A DNA stretch of 64,000 nucleotides from Chrysoperla carnea (lineage: Eukaryota > Arthropoda > Insecta > Neuroptera > Chrysopidae): contig NC_058342.1 in assembly GCF_905475395.1 (NCBI RefSeq), positions 32,322,140-32,386,139 on the forward strand. Reading direction: 5' to 3'. Below the pieces are notes generated by a model, which ran no database searches, was not told the origin of the DNA, and saw only the letters and a program-made list of their open reading frames with translations. A program made the position numbers and the translations under genes. Shown here piece after piece: positions 18,427 to 60,200 of the stretch; positions within the stretch are counted from its first letter, which is position 1; each line of letters opens with the position of its first letter.

Positions 18427-18695
18427 GGAGACAATGTCTCATCTTCTCTGTCACTTCCCAGCCCTTACCATGAGGAGATGGACTTACTTAATCCAGCATC
18501 TCTTTGACGACCTCTCTGACCTAAAGTCCGTCAACGTCAAAGCTCTCCTGCTGTTCTTAAACAGTTCCAAATGATTCATGGAGTAGGGGCCGGGGCTGGG
18601 CTAACCCTTTTTGGGTATCACAACGGACCCTATGATCAAAGAGTGCCCACACCAGGATAGCCACTCTAACCTAACCTAACCTAACCTAACCTACC
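18427..18695 (+). mobile_element. Non-LTR retrotransposon 3' end with (CCTAA)n tail
   Basis: Encodes remnants of a C-terminal zinc knuckle (HLLCHFPALTMRRWTYL) and LLLFLNSSKWF-ME, then a 3' UTR ending GCCACTCTAA and four to five CCTAA units. Same family as 51870-52218 and 61925-62576. Confidence 0.85.
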
Positions 18696-18696
18696 C

Positions 18697-18808
18697 TGTA
18701 TATATGAAATATATATCAAGGTATATTAATTTTAATCCCAAGTTTGTAACGCTAAGAAATATTGATGATACGAGCAATTAACTCAATTGTTTGTTTTTCA
18801 CTTATTTC
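18697..18808 (+). mobile_element. HINE-like repeat, internally deleted
   Basis: The head (TATATATGAAATATAT-TCAAGG, AATCCCAAGTTTGTAACGC) is joined directly to the tail (GCAATTAACTCAATTGTTTG); about 400 bp of middle are missing. Confidence 0.8.
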
Positions 18809-23411: not shown

Positions 23412-23998
23412 TTTTATACCATGTATATGAAATATACCAAGGTATACTAAGTTTAGTCCCAAGTTTTTATACCATGTATATGAAATATACCAAGGTATAC
23501 TAAGTTTAGTCCCAAGTTTTTATACCATGTATATGAAATATACCAAGGTATACTAAGTTTAGTCCCAAGTTTGTAACGCTTAAAAATATTGATGCTATGA
23601 ACAAAATTTTGGTTTAGGTGTTCATAAAATCACCTAAATAATCCATTTCCGGTTGTCTGTCTATCTGTCTGTCGTCTGTCCGTCTATCATCACGATTACT
23701 CAAAAACGAAAAGAGATATTAAGCTGAATTTTTTAAAGCGCCTTTATGGCGTAAAACGTGAAGTCGAGTTCGTAAATGAGCAACATAGGTCAATTGGGTC
23801 TTGGGTCCGTAGTATCTATCTTGTAAACCGTTATAGACACAACAAAAGTTTAAATGTAAGAAATGTTCCTTATCAAAAAATAAACAATTTTTGTTTGAAA
23901 CATTTTTTCGTAAACATCACTGTTTACCCGTGAGGGCGCAAATTAGATTCGAATATTGTATAGTATGTATTTGTATGGGAATATCAGTCATGTGTGTG
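23412..23998 (+). mobile_element. HINE-like repeat with a triplicated head
   Basis: Three head units start at 23412, 23465 and 23518, an exact 53-bp period, before the microsatellite and middle. The 3' terminus is lost before the tRNA region. Confidence 0.9.
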
Positions 23999-31833: not shown

Positions 31834-34800
31834 ATGTCTGAAAAAAAGTGTTCAAGTGCGGGGCTTCCCAAATTAATTGATAAAAAAGTAAGTTTTATTG
31901 AAAAAAATGTCTTTAAGTTGTATTAAACTAACAACTTTTTTGTTTAAAACCTCGTTTAAAATTTTTGAAATAAAAATCGTATAAAATTTTTTACAGTAAA
32001 TTCTCAGTAGCTCAAATATCGATTCCGAGAAACCGCCTTTTAATTAAGAGGGGACAAGGGTCTGAAACATCAAATTTTTTTTTTCGGATTACCTTTTTTA
32101 TTAATATTTCTCAATGTCCTAGCAATTATATTTTGCGTAGGTTGGAAACAAGTTGTAGAAAGTACGGTTACTTTTAAATTCTGATATGCGTACCATGCTT
32201 AACAATTCAGCACTTGCATTATGAACAGTTTGCTCACGCATGATTTAAAACAAATGATATATTTTGTTTTTCGAATAATGAACTCTTTGAAATTTAAAAA
32301 CTATAACTCAAACATTGTCACGTTTCCTTATAAAATTTACATAATTGAGGTTTTACTGTAATTTAAGTTTTTGCCCTATTTCGTATCGTTTTCCGAATAA
32401 AATTTAAAGGATGGGAAATTGAGTGATTTAATTAGATTTACTATAATATAAAATTTGCCTTCTTTTTTATATATCTAGGAAGATGATCCCAATGCAACGC
32501 CCTCCTTGTATAGAATAGGTCGTGGACGAGGTAGTGGATTCAAATCTCTTGCGCAATTAAGAGATGCACTTAATAGTTCTACGACTTCAAACACCTTAAG
32601 TGAATCTACAACAGAACATTTAAAAAAGCTTGGATCTCCAAAACTTTGTGATAAATTAACACCTACCACAAATCCAAAAACAGAAACGGAAGCCACAAAT
32701 CCAGAAACGCAATCATTCGCAACCACTTCAAACACGTTAAGTGAATCTACAACAAAGCTTTTAAAAAAGCTTGGATCTCCAAAAATTGATGATAAATCAA
32801 CCACTTTCACCAATCCAGAAACGGATACCAAAAATTCAGAAACGGTTATTAAAAGAGAAACATCAATTAAATCGGATATAACAGTTGCATCCACTGCCAA
32901 TGTGGTAGTCTCTACGAAAGAAACGACCCCAGTTATTAAAAGAGCAACGCCAACAGAATCGGATAAAATAGTTACATCCACTGCCAATTATATTCGACTG
33001 AATGTGGACCCAGAAAAAGGAGTGTATGAATACGACGTACGTTTCAATCCAAGCGTTGACAATCGCAATTTAAAATTACAAATTTTAGAGAAATTTTTCA
33101 TAAGTCCATTAAAAATTTCCGACGGTAATGTCTTTTATTTACCAATTCGATTAAACATAACAAATTTTTCCGGAAAACATCCCGTAAACGGAGTTCCAAT
33201 AACAATTAACATGACTCTGAGGCGCAAGCTAAGTTTAGCCGAATGTACGCCTTTATATAATATTTTATTTCGACGTATTTTTAAACTCTTACAATATGTT
33301 CAATTCGGACGAAAAATGTTTAATCCGGCCGAATTTCATCGTTTAAACCAGCATAAACTGGAAATATGGCCAGGATATGTAACCGCTGTTGATGAGTACG
33401 AAGATGGAATTATGTTATGTATCGATTGTAGTCATCGAGTACTTCGTACGGATACAGTTCGATCGTATCTAGTGGAATGTATTTCCGTAGCACATCGTAC
33501 CGGCCGCTCATTTAAACAAGAAGCGGAAAAGGCTTTAATTGGCCAAGATATAATTACTAGATATAATAACAAAATATATTGCGTTGATGATATTTTATGG
33601 GATCAAAACCCATCGGGAAAATTTCAAACTCGCGATGGTTCGGAAATTTCTTACATTGAATATTTTAAAAATTATCACGGGATTGAAATCCAAGACGTAA
33701 AGCAACCATTACTAGTCCACAAACGGCCAAACGATACCTTGCTTTGTCTAATCCCAGAATTAAGTCACATGACAGGTTTAACGGAACAAATGAAAAAAGA
33801 TTTTGTGTTAATGAGAGATCTAAACGCCGTTATGCAAATAACACCGGATGTACGAAAAATGGCGATTCAAAAATTTCTAAATAGTGTTCGGAATAATTCC
33901 GAAGCACAAAAATTACTTAATTTATGGGGGCTAAGTCTTGAATCCAAAACAATTAACTTAGAAATGAGAATTCTTCCAGCCGAAAACATTCTGTTTGGTG
34001 GAAGCAAATGTGTACAGGGCTCATGGAATGCTGATTGGTGTAGAAGTATCCGTGAAAATCGATTAATTTCTGCTATAGATATCCAAAAATGGTACGTAAT
34101 CTTCACACCAGGGGACAGAATCAAGGCTGAAAGCTTTACAGATATGCTTCTGCAAGTTTGTGATCCAATGGGTATGCGAATATGCCCTCCACAATTGATA
34201 TGCTTACAAAATGATGCTACCGAAACTTATGTACAAATGCTAAATGAAATTATTCAACCCGATGTACAAATTATCGTACTTTTATGCCCCCGAATAAGGG
34301 ATGATCGTTATTCCGCGATTAAAAAAATATGTTGTGTGGATAAACCAATTCCGTCGCAAGTGATTCAATCGCGAACAATTAAATCTAATCTAAAACAGCT
34401 TCGACCTGTCGTACGAAATATCGCGTTAAAAATGAATTGTAAACTTGGTGGTCAATTATGGTCTATAAATTTTCCAAAACACAATTGGATGATTTGTGGT
34501 ATCGATGTTTATCATGACAATCGATCGAGATCAAGGAAAAGTGTGGTTGGATTTGTGGCATCTATGAATCAACAAATTACCAGATGGTTTAGTCAGGTTG
34601 CTTTCCAAACCAAAACCGAAGAATTATGTAGCGCGTTAAAAGCATTATTTACAAACGCGTTAAAAAACTTTTTTAACGTTAACGGCAACTGGCCAACACA
34701 AATTTTCATTTTTCGAGATGGAATCAGCGATGGTCAACTAAAATTTTCTAAACAGTATGAAATACCACAATTAATGGAAGCGTTGAAAATTATCTGGAAC

Positions 34801-36036
34801 AGTAATATTTGTCGACCGGATCAGATGCCAAAATTAACTTTTATTGTTGTTCAAAAGCGGATTAATACACGATTATTTTTACAAGATAATGAAAAAAATC
34901 CCCCACCAGGTTCAATTATTGATCATACAATTACACGACGAGATTGGTATGATTTTTTCCTGATTCCACAATGTACACGACAAGGGACTGTATCCGTCAC
35001 ACATTATGTGGTTATCGAAGATCAGAGTGGGATGAGTGTGGCGCATATACAACAGTTAGCCTTTAAAATGTGTCACATGTACTATAATTGGTCTGGAACT
35101 ATAAGTGTACCTGCTCCATGCCAAGTAAGTAATCTTTTTAAGCTTGTTATTATTCGTTTTAGCGAGTTTGTTCCTAAGCGGTACATTTTAAGACCGTGAG
35201 TATATTTTTCGTCAAACCTAGACATAATAAGCTTGAAAATAAGGGGTGAATCATGGAATTTGATAAAGGAATAGGGGAGTAAGGAATAGGCCAGAAAAAA
35301 ACTTGAGTGATAATATATAAGATTCAGAGTTTTCAAATTAAAATAAAGTTTGTTTGTGGTAGCCCTGGAACAAACTCAATAAAATCGATATGTAATTTTT
35401 ATACCATGTATATATGAAATATACATAGTATATTAAGTTTAGTCCCAAGTTTGTAACGCTTAAAAATAATGATGCTAGGAAAAAAATTTTGTCATAGGTG
35501 TTCATTCGTCCGTCCGTCTGTGGACACGATAATTTAAAAACGAAAAAAGATATCGAGCTGAAATTTTTACAGCGTACAGAGGACGTAAAAAGTGAGGTCA
35601 AGTTCGTAAATGAGCACCATAGGTCAATTGGGTCTTGGGTCCGTAGGACCCATTTTGTAAACCGTTAGAGATAGAACAAAAGTTTAAATTTAAAAAATGT
35701 TTCTTATCAAAAATTAAACAACTTTTGTATGAAACATTTTTTCGTAAACATCACTGTTTACCCGTGAGGGCGCCAATTAGGCGGAAGTTTTATAATATGT
35801 ACTATACTTGATTATCAGTTATGTATTTGTCACATTTTTGTATGTGTTATGTGATAAAGAAATCAACACTGACTATGCATGGTATTTCAACAATTAACTC
35901 AGTCAATTGTTTGTTTTCACTTGTAACATTTAAATTTCTTTGTTTACAGTATGCCCATAGATTAGCGTCTCTGGTTGGCACTTACATTCACAAGATTCCC
36001 GATGAAAAGTTGGCTAATCGTCTATATTATATTTAA
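31834..36036 (+). CDS. piwi: PIWI-clade Argonaute protein (Piwi/Aubergine-like), complete
   Basis: PIWI-clade Argonautes bind piRNAs and silence transposons, mainly in the germline. Coding exons are 31834-31887, 32479-35124 and 35950-36036, giving 928 aa; both introns are GT-AG and phase 0, and both donors read GTAAGT. I chose the ATG at 31834 because the open frame of the large exon has no nearby in-frame ATG and joins exon 1 exactly in frame. Residues 30-36 contain an RG-rich motif (R-IGRGRG) of the type that is arginine-methylated and read by Tudor proteins. Residues about 50-190 are low-complexity and internally duplicated. PAZ lies at about 300-430, MID at about 555-650 (YSAIKK, then PSQVI) and PIWI at about 650-925. 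The catalytic tetrad appears complete: D694 (GID), E732 or E733 (KTEE), D765 (FRDG) and H860 (THY). The C-terminus follows the family pattern PAPCQ-YAH...LYYI. Length is normal for the family. I cannot separate Piwi from Aubergine without a tree. Confidence 0.95.
35396..35924 (+). mobile_element. HINE-like repeat inside piwi intron 2
   Basis: Near-full copy with a shortened microsatellite. It ends 25 bases before the 3' splice site (AG at 35948-35949) and makes up about two thirds of the 825-bp intron. Confidence 0.9.
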
Positions 36037-36060
36037 GGAAAATTTAAAATAATTTTTTTG

Positions 36061-36066
36061 AATAAA
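36061..36066 (+). promoter_or_regulatory. Polyadenylation signal AATAAA, piwi
   Basis: A canonical AATAAA lies 25 bases after the piwi stop codon, at the start of a 42-bp tandem duplication. Further AATAAA-type hexamers follow up to about 36175, so several cleavage sites are possible. Confidence 0.5.
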
Positions 36067-36148
36067 TAAGAAAGAAACGTTGTTTTAAATAATAAATAAT
36101 TAATTCAATAAGAAAGAAACGTTGTTTTAAATAATAAATAATTAATTC
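36065..36148 (+). repeat. 42-bp tandem duplication in the piwi 3' UTR
   Basis: Two essentially identical 42-bp units start at 36065 and 36107, each with GAAACGTTG and an AT-rich tail. They lie just after the piwi stop codon, so they are probably transcribed in its 3' UTR. Confidence 0.9.
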
Positions 36149-36383
36149 ATGTTTTCAAATTATGGATAATAAAGATTGTTATTTTATTTTTCATTAAATT
36201 ATTTGTTAATTATTTTTTTCGCCGCCCTGAGGAGTTGAAAACTATCAAAAAAACTTGTATTTACTAAATTTTATTTGGATTTCGAAACAACGAAGCCAGA
36301 AAATGAAAATTTGATAATTATTAACAAATCTGGAAAACTTAACAGAGATTTTCATCCTATTTCGTCAAGTTCTATAAAAATCC

Positions 36384-36492
36384 AACTCATAATATAATCG
36401 GTGTGGCTATCCGCACAATACCGTCTACGGTCTAGACCGTCCACGGTCTAGACCGTATTGTGCGGATAGCCACACCGATTATATTATGAGTT
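36384..36492. repeat. Near-perfect inverted repeat with nested palindromes
   Basis: Arms of about 38 bp (36384-36421 and 36455-36492) are reverse complements. The roughly 33-nt centre contains the 10-bp palindrome GGTCTAGACC twice, so two alternative inner hairpins can form. It lies in the piwi-NOMO intergenic region. Confidence 0.9.
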
Positions 36493-36860
36493 CGATTGCT
36501 TGGGCATCATACTCAACTTTTGGCCTAAGGGGGTCAAAGTAGGAATGTTAAGTTTAGGGATGGCAAATCAGTAATTTTTGGCCTCAAAAATTGATTTAGC
36601 CAATGAAATCTACACTAATTTTATAAAGAGTAAACATTTGATTTTTTGTTTGTAATGGATTAACTCAAAAACTGTTGAAACGATTTTAAAAATTATTACA
36701 TATTTAAAAAGCTAAAAAAAAATTAGGGTTCCGTATCCACAAATTTATGATGTGGGAGTCAATGATAAGTTCAGACCCAGGGGACAGCTATCATGATCAA
36801 CTGCCCTGAGTACGTCTAAAATAAAAATTTTCGATATTTCGCTTTATCTTTGAGATAAGA

Positions 36861-37148
36861 GCGTATTCTACAGAAATGTAACATACCGTGTGCGGTATAC
36901 TCTCGTCCACGGTATACATTATACAGATGGGAAAGCGTATTCTACAGAAATGTAACATACCGTGTGCGGTATACTCTCGTCACGGTATACACAATACAGA
37001 TGGGAAAGCGTTTCTACAGAGATTTTTTGCCGTGCGAGGTTTTTAACCGCACACGGTAAGCTATAACACACGGTATGCGTTTATACAGAGATTTTCAAGC
37101 CGTGAATGGTTCTATACCACACACGGTAAGCTCTAACACACGGTATGG
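36861..37148 (+). repeat. Tandem array of 69-74-bp units with internal inverted repeats
   Basis: Four units start at 36861, 36935, 37008 and 37077, each opening with GCGT-T-TACAGA. Every unit contains an inverted pair such as ACCGTG...CACGGT, or GAGGTT...AACCGC flanked by CCGTG/CACGG. The first two units are closely similar; the last two diverge but keep the hairpin potential. Confidence 0.8.
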
Positions 37149-37171
37149 TATATATCTACTAGGAAGTAAAC

Positions 37172-37340
37172 TACTGTGACTTGTGCTCCACTGCACAAGT
37201 CATAGTAAAGTACTGTGACTTGTGCTCCTCTCCACAAGTAATTGTAAAATACTGTGACTTGTGCTCCACTCCACAAGTCATAGTAAAATACTGTGTCTTG
37301 TGCTCCACTCCACAAGTCATAGTAAAATACTGTGACTTGT
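37172..37340 (+). repeat. Tandem array of 39-bp hairpin units (4 full, 1 partial)
   Basis: Units start at 37172, 37211, 37250, 37289 and 37328, an exact 39-bp period. Each unit is an imperfect palindrome: TACTGTGACTTGTG pairs with CACAAGTCATAGTA across a loop of about 8 nt. The last unit stops after 13 bases. The array ends 265 bp before the NOMO start codon. Confidence 0.9.
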
Positions 37341-37554
37341 ATCAGTTGTACATTATGTATACCGTGTGTAATGGTCAGCTACTTTTGATAAACGGAGGTA
37401 AATCTCCTATTCATTTTGGACTTTGTCTAGTGAATTTTGAACACGATATAATAAGTAAATATTTGAATTTGAAACATAGATAATTTTAATTTTATCGAGT
37501 TGGCAACATTCGTTTAGTTCGATATCTTTCGTAAACGTTCGTTTATTATCGAGA

Positions 37555-37572
37555 ATGATGGTACAGCAATAA
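37555..37572 (+). promoter_or_regulatory. Possible uORF ahead of NOMO
   Basis: Two overlapping ATGs (37555 and 37558) open a five-codon reading frame that stops 32 bases before the NOMO ATG. It matters only if the mRNA begins upstream of 37555, which cannot be seen here. Confidence 0.3.
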
Positions 37573-37604
37573 TCCAAAATAAATTAGTTCAAATTTGTAC
37601 AAAG

Positions 37605-40600
37605 ATGTTTTTAATTTATTTATTAACAATAAGTATTTATTTCATAACAAATACACAATCCAATGATATCTTAGGTTGTGGAGGATTCATTAAGAGCGAT
37701 GGACAATTAGATTTTTCACGTATACTTATTAAATTGTAAGTGAAAACGTCTACATTTTTTCGAAAGTTAGGTTAGATTTGATAAAATTTCTCGTTTTTTC
37801 CCGTAGATACACCAAAAAGGGTAGTTTAAAAGATACTACAGAATGTGCACCAAATAATGGATATTATTTTATACCCTTGTATGATAAGGGTAGTTATATA
37901 TTAAAAGTTGAACCACCGACCGGCTGGAGTTTTGATAAAACTCAATTTGAGTTAAACGTTGACGGTGAAACTGATCCTTGTAGTTTAGGAAAGGATATCA
38001 ATTTCTATTTTAAAGGATTTGGTATCACGGGAAGGGTAAGTTTTCTTTCAATTTCTATTCATTTGCATGTTTTTTTGAACTTTTGTAGCCTAATCTATGA
38101 ACTTCTTGTTTGAAATGTATCTTGTAAGGTTGTCCTGTAATTTAACGAGTTTCATAATCGATGATTAAACTTGGTCCATGACTTAAAATCGAAGTTGTAC
38201 ATCTTAATTCCCATCTCTTGGCCATTTTTCGGTTTTATTACCTCGATACCTCGACTTATAATTGATTTTTTTAGGTATACAGTGCGAACAGTGAAACGGG
38301 ACCCGCTGGTGTAAAAATATCCTACAACGAAAATGGGAAACAACGTGAAACCGTCACTACGGAAGGGGGTAACTTTTATTTTACTCCTGTGGTACCAGGA
38401 CGTTACACAATTGTTGCATCTCATCCTAAGTAAATATTTTAACAACTTTTCTTCCTGAAGGTTCATTTATTAATTTTTTTGTTCTTGTTATAGATGGAAG
38501 TTTTTGAAAAATTCCGTAACAGTAGATGTAAAAATTGGAAATACGGAGTTACCACGTGACAGTTTTATAGTGGCTGGTTACGATGTTACCGGACATATTG
38601 TTGGAAATGGTGAACCAATAGATGGCGTTAATATTGTTTTAATTAATGATAAACTGGTGAGTTTATATTTCCCCCCCAAAAAATAAACTTACACTCTGGG
38701 TCTTAGATTATAATGCACTGCTGAAGGTGTGATGCAAACCCGTTCTATAAGAGGGAAAATATGACTATTATTTTTAGGCTTATTTTAAACGAAAATAAAG
38801 GTCAAAGGGAAAAGGTTTTCTTTCCACGCTACTTTAGGGCATCACAGCTTAAATGAAATTTTGTATGTAGGGTTGTTTACTAGACATTTCGATGTTATAA
38901 AAGCGAGGACTGTTTTCAGCAAATTGGGGGTAATTTCCAAAGGAAAAGATGCTTTTTTCGACGTTTTTGTGGTTTTAAATTTCAGTAAAGCCTTCTCAAA
39001 TTGAGCTAAGGTGCTAAACATCGGTATGTAGATTAGGCTAGGGCCAAGGATATACATTTTGGGGATTTCAACTTCCCAGGCCCCACTTCCCTCTTTTTTT
39101 ATTCCGAAATATTATGTTTTTCACGATTTTCATGGCTTTGAACATCCGTACAAGCTCTTTAAATTGAGCAAAGGGGTTGAAAATCGGTATGTAGGTTTGG
39201 CCTAGGGTTAAGGATATGCATTTTGGGAAGTGTCAACTTCCCAGTCCCACTTTCCTCTTTTTTTTCCGAAATATAATGTAATGGCTGTGAATATCTGTAT
39301 CTGTATATAATTTATGGTTGTGAATATCTGTACAGTCTGTCAGTCTCTCTAAATTAAGATTTACGGAGATGTGGGGTTCGTTTTCAAACCCTTCCCCCTC
39401 GTAACGATTATTATAATGTCATTTTATATAACTTAACCTCAAAATAAATGGTTAAAATGTCAAAAATCTGAAAATAGAGGAAGATGATAAAATACCCTAC
39501 CCTACTGGATGAAATCCTGGATTCACGTCTGAACAAGGTTGTACTTTTTGAAAGTGTCAGTTTCCCAAAATAACATAAAAAATGAAAAACATCTTTTAAT
39601 AAGAAATATATAATGAGGAAGTTGAGGATGGGGGTAGTCTTAAGTGTTGGAACTTTGCTTTTGACGAGTTTTTGTTTGTTTCAGAATTACGTGGTAGCCG
39701 AATGTAACGTTCATCCAATACCAAATTTCCAAACAAATTTAGGCAAACCAATATGCAGTATTAAATCGGATGCAAGCGGTACATTTAAATTTGTTTCATT
39801 ACCACCCGGCAATTATAAAATCGTGCCATTTTATCAAGAGACAAATGTTAAATTTGAGATACAACCGGCATTTATTGAATTCACTGTAAATGATAATAGT
39901 GTTGAAATCGATACCAAGTTTACGGTGACTGGTTTAACTGTAAGTGGTCGTGTGATTCTACCAAAGGAGAATCAAGGTGCAACCGTTATTGTTAATAATG
40001 AACAGAAAACTATTACTGGTGTTAATGGACAATATACTTTGAATAATATTCGATCTGGTACCTATCGATTAACTGCCCAAGCTCGTAAGTATGTTTTTTA
40101 TTATACGAACGAACCTCTTCTTAGAGTGTCCTATGGTCTAAGTGTGTCCCACCCCAGGACAGCCACTCTAACCTAACCTAACCTAATACCTGTATTAATT
40201 TATCGAATAAATAAATTTCTTGAGTTTTTTTCATTTTGTATAATCCAAACCAGGGACACCTATTTTGGAGGACCTGCAGAAAATGGGATCTTAAAATTAA
40301 AGAAATGTTCTATACGTTTTTTATATTTATGGAAAATAAATGGCCTTCCCAAGAAAAACTAATAAAAAAACGTTGTTTTTTGAGCTGGACACTGGATATA
40401 ACCCCTTAATTATGAAATAACTATGAAGGTCCAGAAGCTCCCAATAAATGTACAACATATTTTAAAAATTGTTTTTTCTTTTGGTTTGCAGCGGATATTA
40501 AATTCCCCGAAATCAAAGTGGATATAATGCCTCGTAAACATACGTTACCCGATTTAAAACCGAACGCATATAAAAGTTGCGGTCAAGTATTGAGCGACAA

Positions 40601-43600
40601 CGAATATGAAGTTGTGTACGAATTAGAATCGAACAAAGATCGTTTTACTGTCAAATCAAATCCAAAATCGGGTGGAAATTATTGTATTTATTTACCTCCG
40701 GGAAAATATTCAGCTACAGTACTGCCAAGTGTTCATGATCCACCAAATGTTCAGTAAGTATTAAAATAATATCAAAACAATGAAAGCGGTGGGTCCCCAA
40801 AAAGACGCCCCGGGATTTGTGGATGAATTTTACAGAAGATATGTTCAAAAATAATTCTTAAAAAGCATGTAATGTGGGCAAAATATGACTTTGATGACTG
40901 TGTTCTGCTCTTCACATTTTTTAAGGCTTATTTTCTTTTTTTACATAGATTTTATCCATTGGCTCACACCGTCGAAATTGTGGACAAAACTCCACAAGAA
41001 ATTGTTTTCTCGCAATTACGTGCTACAGTTACTGGAACAGTTGAATGTTTCACGAGTGCCGAATGTGAATCCTTACAAATTGACTTGAAATCCATGTCAA
41101 CGGGTAGTCCATCACAGATTTACAAAACTGTCATTTCTAGTAAGTATCCTGGCAGAATCCAATTTTCAGAATTTATTTCTTCTAAAAATATATTTCTTGT
41201 TTTTAGATGGAAAATACAAATATTCCGATATTCCTCCGGGACGATATGAAGTATCTATTGTAGGAGTTGGACTTTGTTGGGAAAATCAGAAACATTATAT
41301 CGTGATCAATTCAGAAGAAGCCTCAATTCCATCATTTAAACAAACTGGCTATCGTACTCTGTTCCGAACTGATTATCAAACTCAAGTAAGTAAAAAATGC
41401 TACAATTACGGACCCATTCTTCATGAGAAACGACCCGGAAGGAGAAGCTTTTAACGTTCAGCGTTGCCACTGATTTCGAAAGAAGCGTGTACTTTCGTTT
41501 GCCTCTAATAAAACCCTTTGCCAGATGGCAATCTTTTCTCCAATTTGGACCCAGTTTTGGCAGGATAGAAGTTCCAACAAAGAAGTTTTGAGCATTCTGC
41601 GCCTTTTCAAACTCTTTTTAAATCTTGAAAAACATGAGAACGATCCGAAAGAAAAGCTTTGGGAATGTTCATGGGTTTATTTGACTCTAATAAAACCTTT
41701 TGCCAGATGAAAATTCTTGTCTGCTATAAGGAACCAGTTACGGCATAATAGAATTTCCGACAAAGAAAAATTGAACATTCTGTGCCTTTTTAAACCTTGA
41801 AAAACGGGAGTGAAATCGGTTCGATTATAGTTTTATCTCAAAAACTGTTCTTCCAATCGTTAAATAAACCCGATTTTTGTATTCACCGGGTCAAAATTAC
41901 CTTATATATTGAGTTTTATCGAAATCGAGAGTGCAAATTTTTTTTCGCTTTTTTGCAATTTTTTTAAGGGGTACCCCTTTGTAAAAAATCGAAAAATCAT
42001 AAAAATATTAAATGTTTTGGAATTCAATAAAATTCATATTATAAGGTCAATTTGACCCAAAAAAATGAAAAATCCAGTTTATTTAACGATTAGACGATTG
42101 GATTCCGAGTTATGGGCTGAAATCGCTTCGATTAAAGCACTATCTCAGAAACTGTTCTTCCAATCGTTAAATAAACCCGATTTTTGTATTCTCCGGGTCA
42201 AAAATACCTTATATATTGAGTTTTATCGAAATCGAGAGTGCAAATTTTTTTTCGTTTTTTTGCAATTTTTTTAAGGGGTACCCCTTTGTAAAAAATCGAA
42301 AAATCACAAAAAAAATTAAATGTTTTGGAATTCAATAAAATTCATATTTTAAGGTCAATTTGACCCAAAAAAATGAAAAATCCACTTTATTTAACGATTG
42401 GCACAATAGTTTCTGAGATAAAGCTATAATCGGACCGATTTCAGCCCATAACTCGGAATCCATTCGTCTAATCGTTAAATAAACTGGATTTTTCCTTTTT
42501 TTGGATCAAATTGACCTTAAAATATGAATTTTATTGAATTCCAAAACATTTAATATTTTTGTGATTTTTCGATTTTTTACAAAGGGGTACCCCTTAAAAA
42601 AATTGCAAAAAAAACGAAAAAAAATTTTCACTCCCGATTTCGATAAAACTCATTATATAAGGTAATTCTAAGGTAAATTTGAACAAAAAAATTAAAAATC
42701 CAGTTTATTTAACAATTAAACGAATGGATTCCGAGTTATCTGAAAAGAAGCTTTGGACGTTCGGCATTGCCACTGATCTCAAAAGAAACGTGTAATTTCA
42801 TTTGCCTCTAGTAAAACCCTTTGCCAGAATACAATTTTGTCTCCAACAAGGACCGAGTTCTGACATAGTGAAAGTTCTGACAAAGAAAGTTTGAGCAGTT
42901 GGCACCTTTTAAAACTTTGAAAAAGATGAGAAACCATCCGAAAGATAAGCTTTGGACTTTCGGCGTTGACACTGATCTCGAAAAAAACGTGTATTTTCAT
43001 TTGCCTCTAATAAAACCCTTTGTCAAATGACAATTTTTGTCTCAAATAAGGACCTAGCTGCGACAATTTTTATTTATTTTGGTTTTTTTTTTCAGATTCA
43101 TTATGAATTATTAAGCGAAAATAATTCCGTCATACAAAAAGGTGTAATCAACAATCCTCCAGGAACGAACACTCATTGTCTCAAGAAATCCGGACGATAT
43201 CGTTTCACTGGTGTCAGTTGTCACGGCTACGATCCAAAATTCGTTGAATGGAGCACCAGTTCACGATCGAATATCCAAACACCAATCGTATTCACGGCAA
43301 TCACACATGCGCATAATATTCTCGTCACCGTAAACGATAAAAACGCGAAGATTACGTTGAATGTGAAGTCCGAGGACGAGGAATTCTTGTACGCATTGGA
43401 TCAAGCGAATATCACTCCAATCAGTGATAATAAAGTGATCCACGAATTTAGCTTACAAGTGGCTGAACATGAAACACTTATTATTGAACCAAAATCTGAT
43501 ATCATGTTGTTTAAACCGCAAGTGTTACGATTGGTTGGTAGCTTTGATTGTGTAAAATTGGCTGGAGAAATTCTGGCGTTGAAGGGGAAAATCCTTGCTG

Positions 43601-46339: not shown

Positions 46340-46680
46340 CTAGGGTGGTAATTTGTTTATCAATATGTTCGTTCCTATGTTGGCACACTATAGACCAAAC
46401 GCGTCGGCCAATTTTGATGATTCTGACGTCAATTGATTCATCTTAATCTTGAGAGTGCCACTGAAGATATGGCAGTAAAGAAAATTCAATATTTTGACCA
46501 CCAGGCGCCATATTGTAAAAAGAAAGTATATGTTTTCCTATGTGGCGCAATAGAGACCAAACGCGTGGATCGATTTCGATGATTCTTACGCCAATCGATT
46601 TGTTTTAACCTTGGGACTGTTACTGAACATATTGTAACATAGAAAATTCAATATGGCGACCACCAGACGTCAAAAAAAAA
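46340..46680 (+). repeat. About 180-bp tandem duplication
   Basis: Two diverged units share AGACCAAACGCGT, TTTCGATGATTCTTACG, CAATCGATT and the segment GAAAATTCAATAT-GCGACCACC. Confidence 0.7.
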
Positions 46681-55654: not shown

Positions 55655-56436
55655 CTTGGAGCTAGGAACTATGGTCCGGGAACGGACTACAAAATCACTG
55701 TACCTATCAGTAACCAGCTCAAACTTTGTAATAAAACGGCAATCAAACCCATAAAAACAATGGGCTATGGCAACCATACCAGACCGGGGGAGAAAGTAGG
55801 GAATTTGTCATGCCATATTGGGATACCAACTTGACCTTGGGTAGCGCCCGGGACATGATGCACTCCCTTGTCCACCTTTCGCTACGCTACTGAGTCATGT
55901 TTGTGGATAAAGTATTGCAACCTTTGAAAAACGGGTCAACCTTTGAAGGTTGGCAACCTTTTTTCAAAGGTTGCCGAACTTTATCCACGAAGTTGATCTG
56001 GCAACCTATTATTTCATTTGGCACCCTTTTAGAGCACCGCCCGGGATATGATGCACTCCCTTGTACACCTTTCGCTACGCTACTGAGTCATGTTTGTGGA
56101 TAAAGTATGGCAACCTTTGAAAAAAGGGTCAACCTTTGAAGAGTGGCAACCTTTTTTCAAAGGTTTCCATACTTTATCCACTAAGTTGACCTGGCAACCT
56201 TTTATTTCTTGAAAAGGTAGATTGAAAGCTACAGCTCCACGTGAAAATTACCCGGTTACCTTATGGGTAAAGTTGGTATTCCAATATGGTATTACAAATT
56301 TACCCCTCTTCCCCCGATCTGGTAGGATTACCATTGCCCATTGATTTTACGGGTTTGATTGTTACTTTATTATAAAGTTTGAGCCAAAATTTGATTGGTC
56401 AATTGATTTTGTAGTCCGATCCCGGGCCACTAGGAG
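55655..56436. mobile_element. Foldback element with long inverted arms and nested tandem hairpins
   Basis: Arms of about 175-180 bp (55655-55833 and 56262-56436) are reverse complements over most of their length (GGACTACAAAATCA, CTCAAACTTT-TAATAAA, CAATCAAACCC, CATATTGG-ATACCAACTT). Between them are two tandem units of about 187 bp (from about 55848 and 56037). Each contains a hairpin of roughly 30-bp arms, at 55903-55988 and 56096-56181, in which GTGGATAAAGTAT-GCAACC pairs with GGTT-CC-ACTTTATCCAC. No coding capacity. Confidence 0.85.
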
Positions 56437-57219: not shown

Positions 57220-60200
57220 TCAAACATGCCACAATAAAAGATGGTTTGTTGAATCTTCACGTCCCGCTAATTCCGATACACTTGCATTACGGAAATCTTC
57301 GTAACCATCCCCACCACTTATTATTAAGATTTTATTTTGATCTTTGTTCGTTTGTGATGTGTATTTATGATGGTGGCCATACTTTCCAATTTTACTGGTT
57401 GTGGTCACAGCGTGAGTGGCATCTTCAACGTACGTTAAGAAACGTACTTGACCCGTATGTCCATGTGACAAACCTGAAATCAATCACGCTTCAATTTTAA
57501 ATACATTCTAAAAAATAAAACACATTCTCGGGGAGACCACTTAATTTTTGGTCCTTCGTGCCATCTTTAACTATAGACTTATATCATCCCTCTTTTTTGG
57601 TCCCTCATGATATGAAAGCACCTAATTAGTCCATTTCCGGTTGTCTGTCTGTCTGTCTGTCTGTCTGTCGTCTGTCTGTCGTGTGTCTGTCGTCTATCTG
57701 TCGTGTGTCTGTCGTATGTCTGTCGTCTGTCTATCGTCTGTCTGTCTGCCATCAGGATAACTCAAAAACGAAAAGAGATATCAAGCTGAAATTTTTGAAA
57801 TTTTTATAGCGTACTGAGAACGTAAAAAGTGAGGTCAAGTTCGTAAATGAGCAACTTAGGTCAATTGGGTCTACGGTCCATAGGACCCATCTTGTAAACC
57901 GTTAGAGAAACAACAAAAGTTTAAATGTGAAAAATGTTCTTTATAAAAAATTAAACAACTTTTGTTTGAAACATTGTTTCGTAAACATCACTGTTTACCC
58001 GTGAGAGCGCAAATTGTATAGTATGTATTATATGGGTATATCAGTTATATGAGTGTGCCATATACGTATTTGTATGTAATCAACACTATCTATACATGGT
58101 ATTTCAACAGTTAACTCAGTCAATTGTTTGTTTTCACTTGTTTTTTTTTTTAAGGAGTGTATATACAGTGTGTTAAATTGACAAGCACATAACTTACCAT
58201 TTACAGTTAATTGTGTTGTAATCCGTTCGGTACTCTGAGTGATATGTGGAATCAAAATTGTTAGAAGAACGCCAGCGCTGGTACCAACCCATAATAAATC
58301 CTTACACGCTAACAAAGCTGTCACTCGTAAGCATGCCGATTTATGCTGTCGAATAATATCATCACAACCTGCTAAATAAAATTCATCAAATTAGGATGGC
58401 AATCGATATGGACTTTATGAAATTCTATGACTTTTCTATGAATACAGCAAAAATTAATTGGGGGATTCCCCGATAGTGTAAACTTCACCGTGCAAGTGGT
58501 GTAATTTTCCCTTTTTTTTATTTGCCAACAGAGCCTTAATTTCATGCGTGTTCAAGGGCCCCGGTATGGGCTAATATGGCACTGGGAACTACTGGTCTTC
58601 AGTAATGATCCTCAAACCATAGATGATGTTAATTTAAATTTTCATATTTGGAGACCTCAAACATTGAATTAACTCCCACCTCCCCCCTCTGTTGATAACG
58701 CCCTTGTTTATTGTATTGTAATAGTAAATATACTCACTGGATAACATTTTATTAACCGTTGGGGTGACATTGATTTCACATAACATTTCATAGGTGTTGG
58801 CATGGAAACATTTGATAACCGCTGAATTATGAATTGAAACCCAAACACCTAGGCCTGTCAGTGTCATACACGATAATTGTTTACAACTATCGTTACTCAC
58901 TGGAAATGTGTGTTCCACCTAAATTCAAAAAAACAAATGCAATAATTTATTAAGGATGTACTACCTTAAAATTATTCAAAAAAATAAATAAAAATAAAAC
59001 ATGTGGTTCACTTACCTGAAGTGTAGTAATGTTTAAAATTTTTATAAAATTTGGACATCCACACCAAAGTTTACCATTATTGGGTAACATACGTATAACG
59101 GGCATTGATGCTGTACCAATTGATATAACGCATGGATCACTTGTGTTCCAAACTCCCACTACAACAGAAGCATTCAATTTAGACGATTTAAAACTTTTAC
59201 AGTGTCCCATAAATTTTGATATTTTGAACGTGTATGGGACACTTTATTATATTTTATACTTACAATTATCTCTGGTATAAATTGTGATGTCTCCATTTGC
59301 CAAAGATACAAACACTCGATTATCCAAGTATCTACGTGAAAAAATTTATTTTAGAGATGATATCTTAAAAAATAGTATATTTTGAAGGATTTGGAATATC
59401 TAATAATAGGACAATTTACAATTTCTAACCCGGTCACATAGACACCCTTCCCTTCTCCAACAAGTTGTTCGGAATTTTTTTTCTTCTGGTTTTCTTGGTC
59501 AATACTCTTTCCACCAAGTGCATAGAGACGGCCTGAGTGATTGGACAGACGGACTCGACATTTAAGAAAGGTCTGAAGTCCTTGACCTTGAATAAATCGA
59601 TGAAATTGGATTTTTCTGCCTTTCAAGTTAATGGGAATTTTTTCTTCTTGTTTCTTGATCAGGACTCTTTCCGCTTAATGCACAGAAAAGACTCAGGGGA
59701 TTGGAACGAAGTCGACCTTTAAGAAAGGTCTGAAATCTCTTGACCTTGAATAAACCGATGAAATACAACTTTTCTGTCTTTCAAGTTGGATGGGAATTTT
59801 TTGGTCCTGGTTTTCTTGGTCGGGACGCTTTTCACTAAATGTACAGAAGAGGTCTGAGTGTTGGACAGACGGACTCGACCTTTAAAGAAGATCTGAAGTC
59901 TATTGACCTTGAATAAACCAGTGGAATTCGACTTATTTGCCTTTACAAGTTAATGGGAATTTTTTTCTTTGGTTTTGTTGAAATGTACTTGTTCGAAGTG
60001 CACAGAAGAAACCCAGGTGATTGGACAGATGGCCTGAACCTTTAAGAAGGATCTAGAGTCCCTTGAGTGAAATTCAGCTCTTCTGCCTTTCAAGTAAATG
60101 GGAATTTTTTTCTTTTGGATTTTTTGGTTGGGACTCCTTCCAACAAGTATACCGAAGAGACCTGAGTAATTGGGCAGACGAAATCGACCTTTATTTTATT

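Follow-up and report, generated by a model that had tools for sequence, protein, structure and literature searches.

An inversion (PMC7642927) and the origin of a satellite (PMC4079207) are reported as consequences of foldback-type DNA transposons, and four described elements resemble the repeats that we analyzed here. FB (Foldback) of Drosophila melanogaster carries end sequences, a spacer and tandem blocks mirrored around a middle region, with variable block numbers and 9-bp duplications (PMC7642927). Tetris of Drosophila virilis is non-autonomous and has modular inverted ends with tandem repeats and 8-10-bp duplications; no transposase was found for it, and its repeats are able to grow into satellites (PMC4079207). 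In Tm1 of root-knot nematodes, the ends are composite, with tandem units that vary, the duplications measure 9 bp, and short, non-identical tips lie outside the repeats (PMC3169594); Galileo of Drosophila has long inverted ends and, in one D. willistoni copy, internal tandem repeats (PMC4168063). In all of these respects, the elements are like the family described below.

Here, we analyzed a stretch of 64,000 nucleotides of the Chrysoperla carnea genome (the window), in which three repeat blocks lie between piwi and NOMO. Very likely, these blocks are what is left of a non-autonomous DNA transposon of the foldback type.

Repeat blocks between piwi and NOMO

Pfam analysis of the window placed Piwi and PAZ domains (32479-35196, + strand) 5' of the repeat blocks and NOMO domains, also on the + strand, 3' of them. 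The last piwi frame ended at 36036, which we take to be the C-terminus of piwi. Four AATAAA motifs (36061, 36091, 36133 and 36168) lay beyond this stop, the first of them about 25 bp past it, and piwi read-through into the repeat blocks was therefore considered less likely. A perfect 42-bp tandem duplication, which takes in the surroundings of two of the AATAAA motifs, was also observed just past the stop (36065-36149). On the other side, a possible NOMO start was found at 37605, so that the arrays stop about 250 bp short of it. Elsewhere, the window contained a short (CTAAC)n run (18666-18697), which is (TTAGG)n on the opposite strand and presumably the arthropod telomere repeat, and further tandem arrays, their units ranging from 53 to 307 bp (2432-2914, 23412-23572, 41837-42626, 46363-46666, 55845-56208 and 59477-59980), among which 41837-42626 sits among NOMO exons.

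The initial annotation had reported three hairpin-rich blocks in this interval, each repeating a structure. The blocks are real and lie where they had been placed, and both the repeat layout and RNA folding bore out their strong hairpin potential: folded as RNA, 36384-37340 reached -338.3 kcal/mol, whereas 20 dinucleotide shuffles averaged -224.3 (sd 7.89) and none of them was as low as the real sequence (z -14.45). The first block is indeed a 109-bp inverted repeat with nested palindromes (36384-36492), whose arms (36379-36427 and 36449-36497) are 96% complementary and carry two GGTCTAGACC cores. It begins with 15 bp of left host flank (36384-36398, + strand), the end of a flank that is single copy in the genome (36040-36398), followed by an end block, here called T, which begins CGGT-GTGGCTATCCGCACAATACCG (36399-36447, + strand). 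A second end block, arranged head to head with this one and missing 7 bp of it, contains the end motif with one mismatch (36448-36477, - strand); the block closes with a mirrored copy of the left flank (36478-36492, - strand), the exact reverse complement of 36384-36398.

The sequence separating the first and second blocks (36493-36859) was foreign to the repeat family; within it, 36608-36714 is a piece of an older dispersed repeat and was found in at least 39 other places at 77-87% identity with 40 of 171 candidates scored. The second block had been described as four units of 69-74 bp; repeats are present there, but they belong to two different families rather than one, comprising two units of about 74 bp (A array, 36860-37007, + strand; 74 and 73 bp, variant order ATT-CAA) and about two units of 70 bp (B array, 37008-37154, + strand). 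In the third block, the 39-bp period was exact over 4.5 copies (37165-37340), whereas the copies themselves, previously called exact, are not identical (91% matches); with its inner edge, this C array extends to 37359 (+ strand). The array half opens within the A array at 36860 and closes at the C inner edge, and homology to most other copies stops at 37358-37359, with one copy (L009) aligning on to 37370.

A dispersed family with modular ends

The search for the units elsewhere in the genome, which the initial annotation had suggested, was productive: 36384-37340 gave at least 247 matches in its own 559-Mb genome (40 of 328 candidates scored). From the best matches we drew 39 loci (L009-L047), a sample that consequently favors array-bearing copies. 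These loci had a single module order from outside to inside, namely T (end block), S (spacer), A (74-bp array), B (70-bp array) and C (39-bp array), with T>S, S>A, A>B and B>C neighbor pairs occurring 49, 45, 45 and 12 times, respectively, and any other kind of pair at most 11 times. These counts drop hits below 55% of the unit length with less than 40 bits as well as weaker overlapping hits, take in, for T, partial matches inside internal ACCGT-rich arrays, and exclude L048 (without end motif and A core) and L001-L008 (which overlap later loci or the window). Runs comprised 1-11 units of A, 1-6 of B and 1-10 of C, and inverted ends faced each other in L011, L019 and L022; inverted ends with variable numbers of tandem repeats are the structure that defines foldback elements. 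C was inverted relative to A and B in certain copies, L023 and L025 among them, which indicates that arms had been rearranged. Frames of at least 130 aa were surveyed in 40 loci, and those within elements ran through repeats. Comparison of the arrays with phage records, an improbable place that served as a check, gave no match. Paired C units formed a tandem array with a period of about 148 bp in one locus (L028:2130-3192), like a satellite growing from a transposon arm, and within another element copy lay an unrelated insertion (L011:3161-3500), palindromic and bounded by long inverted ends.

The copies were very similar to each other. Among full-length A units, 47 of 129 were identical, and the consensus base was kept in at least 96% of units at each position, with the exception of two adjacent positions of one variant site. 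The order of unit variants in the window C array, ACGC-AGCA-TACC-AACC, was the commonest among 38 arrays (seven, window included; the next, TGCA-TACC, had five), and the ATT-CAA order of its A array was the commonest among 52 (14, window included). Since the same variant order would not be expected elsewhere if an array had grown at this spot, it appears that the arrays came to the window ready made.

The end block was also recognized in an alignment of ends, and its motif occurred at 96 places in the genome with up to two mismatches (45 forward and 51 reverse; none for the reversed control), preceded by a variable 4-bp tip (CGGT, CGAA, GCAA and others). Exact 9-bp duplications bounded 15 of 22 pairs of facing ends (6/8, 7/10 and 2/4 in the three batches), versus 0 of 462 mismatched control pairs, and no pair among the 22 had a duplication of 7, 8, 10 or 11 bp. 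The seven other pairs differed at two of the nine bases (L064 and L070) or at four to nine (L026, L041, L066, L078 and L080). Elements in the first batch of eight facing pairs spanned 1.0-2.7 kb. Target-site duplication is thus a property of the family, whereas the window copy is broken: it has neither a second end nor a duplication, its array half stands apart from the end block, and it is assigned to the family by its modules only. The end motif had no match in viral_contigs, and its first 14 bases were not found in literature text, which says little because sequences are seldom given in text. The 96 ends were unevenly spread over the genome (21 on contig C6 versus 6.6 expected; nine on C1 versus 24.0 expected) and were concentrated in a single terminal quarter of C1, C2, C4, C5 and C6, and in both terminal quarters of C3.

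Transposase and superfamily

The P superfamily, to which Galileo belongs, makes duplications of 7-8 bp (PMC4168063), and a Galileo-like assignment was not supported, as none of the 22 facing pairs had a duplication of either length. The Mutator superfamily (MULE) makes duplications of 8-11 bp (PMC6446971); the 9-bp duplications fit this range, although such a length is not exclusive to MULEs. On the basis of duplication length alone, we call the superfamily Mutator-like. The genome contained 14 MULE domain matches over the cut-off, two on C5 and 12 at C1:138.28-139.76 Mb; the latter (G000:C1:138278958-139763879) lie within the last 1.7 Mb of that contig. The match nearest to any of the 96 ends was 3.5 Mb away, and we could not assign any of the 14 to the family as its transposase.

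ACCGT/ACGGT palindromes are common to T, S, A and B, and the C module lacks this shared motif. CCGT/ACGG occurred 15 times in the 375 bp of T, A and B in the window, whose remainder had a density of 3.2 per kb. If a comparison with Galileo made in PMC4079207 is a guide, these palindromic sites may serve protein binding instead of RNA structure, and are predicted to be repeated binding sites for the transposase.

RNA structure

Selection for RNA structure, one of the two explanations offered by the initial annotation, was not supported. Across 14 stem pairs of the C hairpin in 125 units (35 distinct), no double or compensatory change was found, although the units are too alike for a strong test; 102 of 1750 cells were broken, chiefly at pairs 4-33 (28) and 7-30 (31), and substitutions were about equally frequent at stem and unpaired sites (4.25 and 3.75 per site, respectively). 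The unit set admits up to eight substitutions in 36, and with a limit of five (119 units) the number of double changes was still zero. Rfam analysis of 36000-37600 in the window gave nine matches up to E 1, including microRNA families with E-values from 3.4e-7 to 0.053. All nine were well below the gathering scores, so that no membership in a microRNA or other Rfam family was found, and such matches are what generic hairpins would give.

Origin of the blocks and of the palindrome

The inverted ends of the family combine an end block with a spacer and with three different tandem arrays, the number of units differing from copy to copy, and insertion generates a 9-bp target duplication. We propose that a transposase from elsewhere, most likely Mutator-like, would cut and paste the elements. 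One array half (36860-37359) may have been left when an insertion between piwi and NOMO broke up, and the palindrome (36384-36492) may have arisen as an end block and its flank were copied in a fold-back, in the manner of hairpin-primed repair synthesis. The derivation of the palindrome and the array half from one insertion is putative. Local amplification of the blocks via hairpins, or their maintenance by selection for RNA structure, would agree with the strong folding and with the sub-threshold Rfam matches; however, we regard this explanation as very improbable, because modules in the same order and unit variants ordered alike recur at other loci, which does not support hairpin-driven amplification in place, and because the C stem pairs showed no double changes. 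The same recurrence of modules, module order and variant orders led us to reject three independent local repeats. Ordinary minisatellites, unrelated to transposons and spread by chance or recombination, could account for the different unit numbers between copies and for the satellite-like array of C units in L028, but the fixed module order and the 9-bp duplications at facing ends make them the least credible explanation. What might have been a structured-RNA locus beside piwi appears instead to belong to a young foldback transposon family.

In the palindrome, two ends meet head to head, and 15 bp of flank are mirrored, not duplicated; the mirror image is exact over 15 bp and reaches 20 bp with one mismatch, whereas none of nine positions agreed when the flanks were compared as a direct repeat. 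Cut-and-paste insertion duplicates its target directly. A plain insertion with direct duplication was therefore rejected, and the mirrored flank points to fold-back synthesis that, once the element had inserted, would have continued from the end into the adjacent flank, possibly primed by the ACGGTCTAGACCGT core. With 40 of 112 candidates scored, the 119-bp stretch containing the palindrome had no other full-length match in the genome. Its other listed forward matches all fell within query positions 11-81, and none of those listed reached 1-10; a weak reverse match (C6:27791829-27791908, 76%, query 42-119) entered the mirrored flank, probably via A+T richness. On the basis of the matches listed, the possibility that the mirrored flank is part of the family end was rejected. 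A complete miniature element of two ends, inserted independently, would explain why the CGGT tip opens both sides of the palindrome, as it does in L062/L063, a copy with an exact duplication, and why the shorter form of the right-hand end recurs at one other end in the genome (L078). It is nevertheless rather unlikely in view of the mirrored flanks and the lack of a second full-length match among the candidates scored. Thus, the palindrome is probably a product of fold-back repair, for which the 7-bp-shorter second arm needs an extra slip. More tentatively, the end blocks of the family in general might act as hairpin primers, a break near the ACGGTCTAGACCGT core allowing the strand to fold back and form a palindrome by copying the end with its host flank. 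If true, hairpin priming would be a route to new foldback ends, and perhaps to their inverted architecture, with one such event caught in the window.

Comparison with known foldback elements

The elements introduced above, compared by description, also differ from the family. FB has ends of 467-479 bp with repeats of 27-31 bp (PMC7642927), whereas the end block here is short and the array units measure 74, 70 and 39 bp. A single array is described for Tetris (units of about 220 bp; PMC4079207) and for Tm1 (units of about 14 bp; PMC3169594), compared with three different arrays here; in addition, Tm1 has a known Phantom-like (Mutator) transposase (PMC3169594), whereas none was linked to our family. 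Galileo differs in its P-superfamily affiliation and its 7-8-bp duplications (PMC4168063), in contrast with 9 bp here. We found no arm with three different arrays in the descriptions of FB, Tetris and Tm1 available, and make no claim that such an arm is absent from print. The three-array ends and the palindrome with its mirrored flank offer a natural example of how the ends of foldback elements may grow. Set beside FB, Tetris and Tm1 by description, this family is new but belongs to a known kind, the foldback elements, and shares with all three an architecture in which an end is combined with a spacer and tandem arrays.
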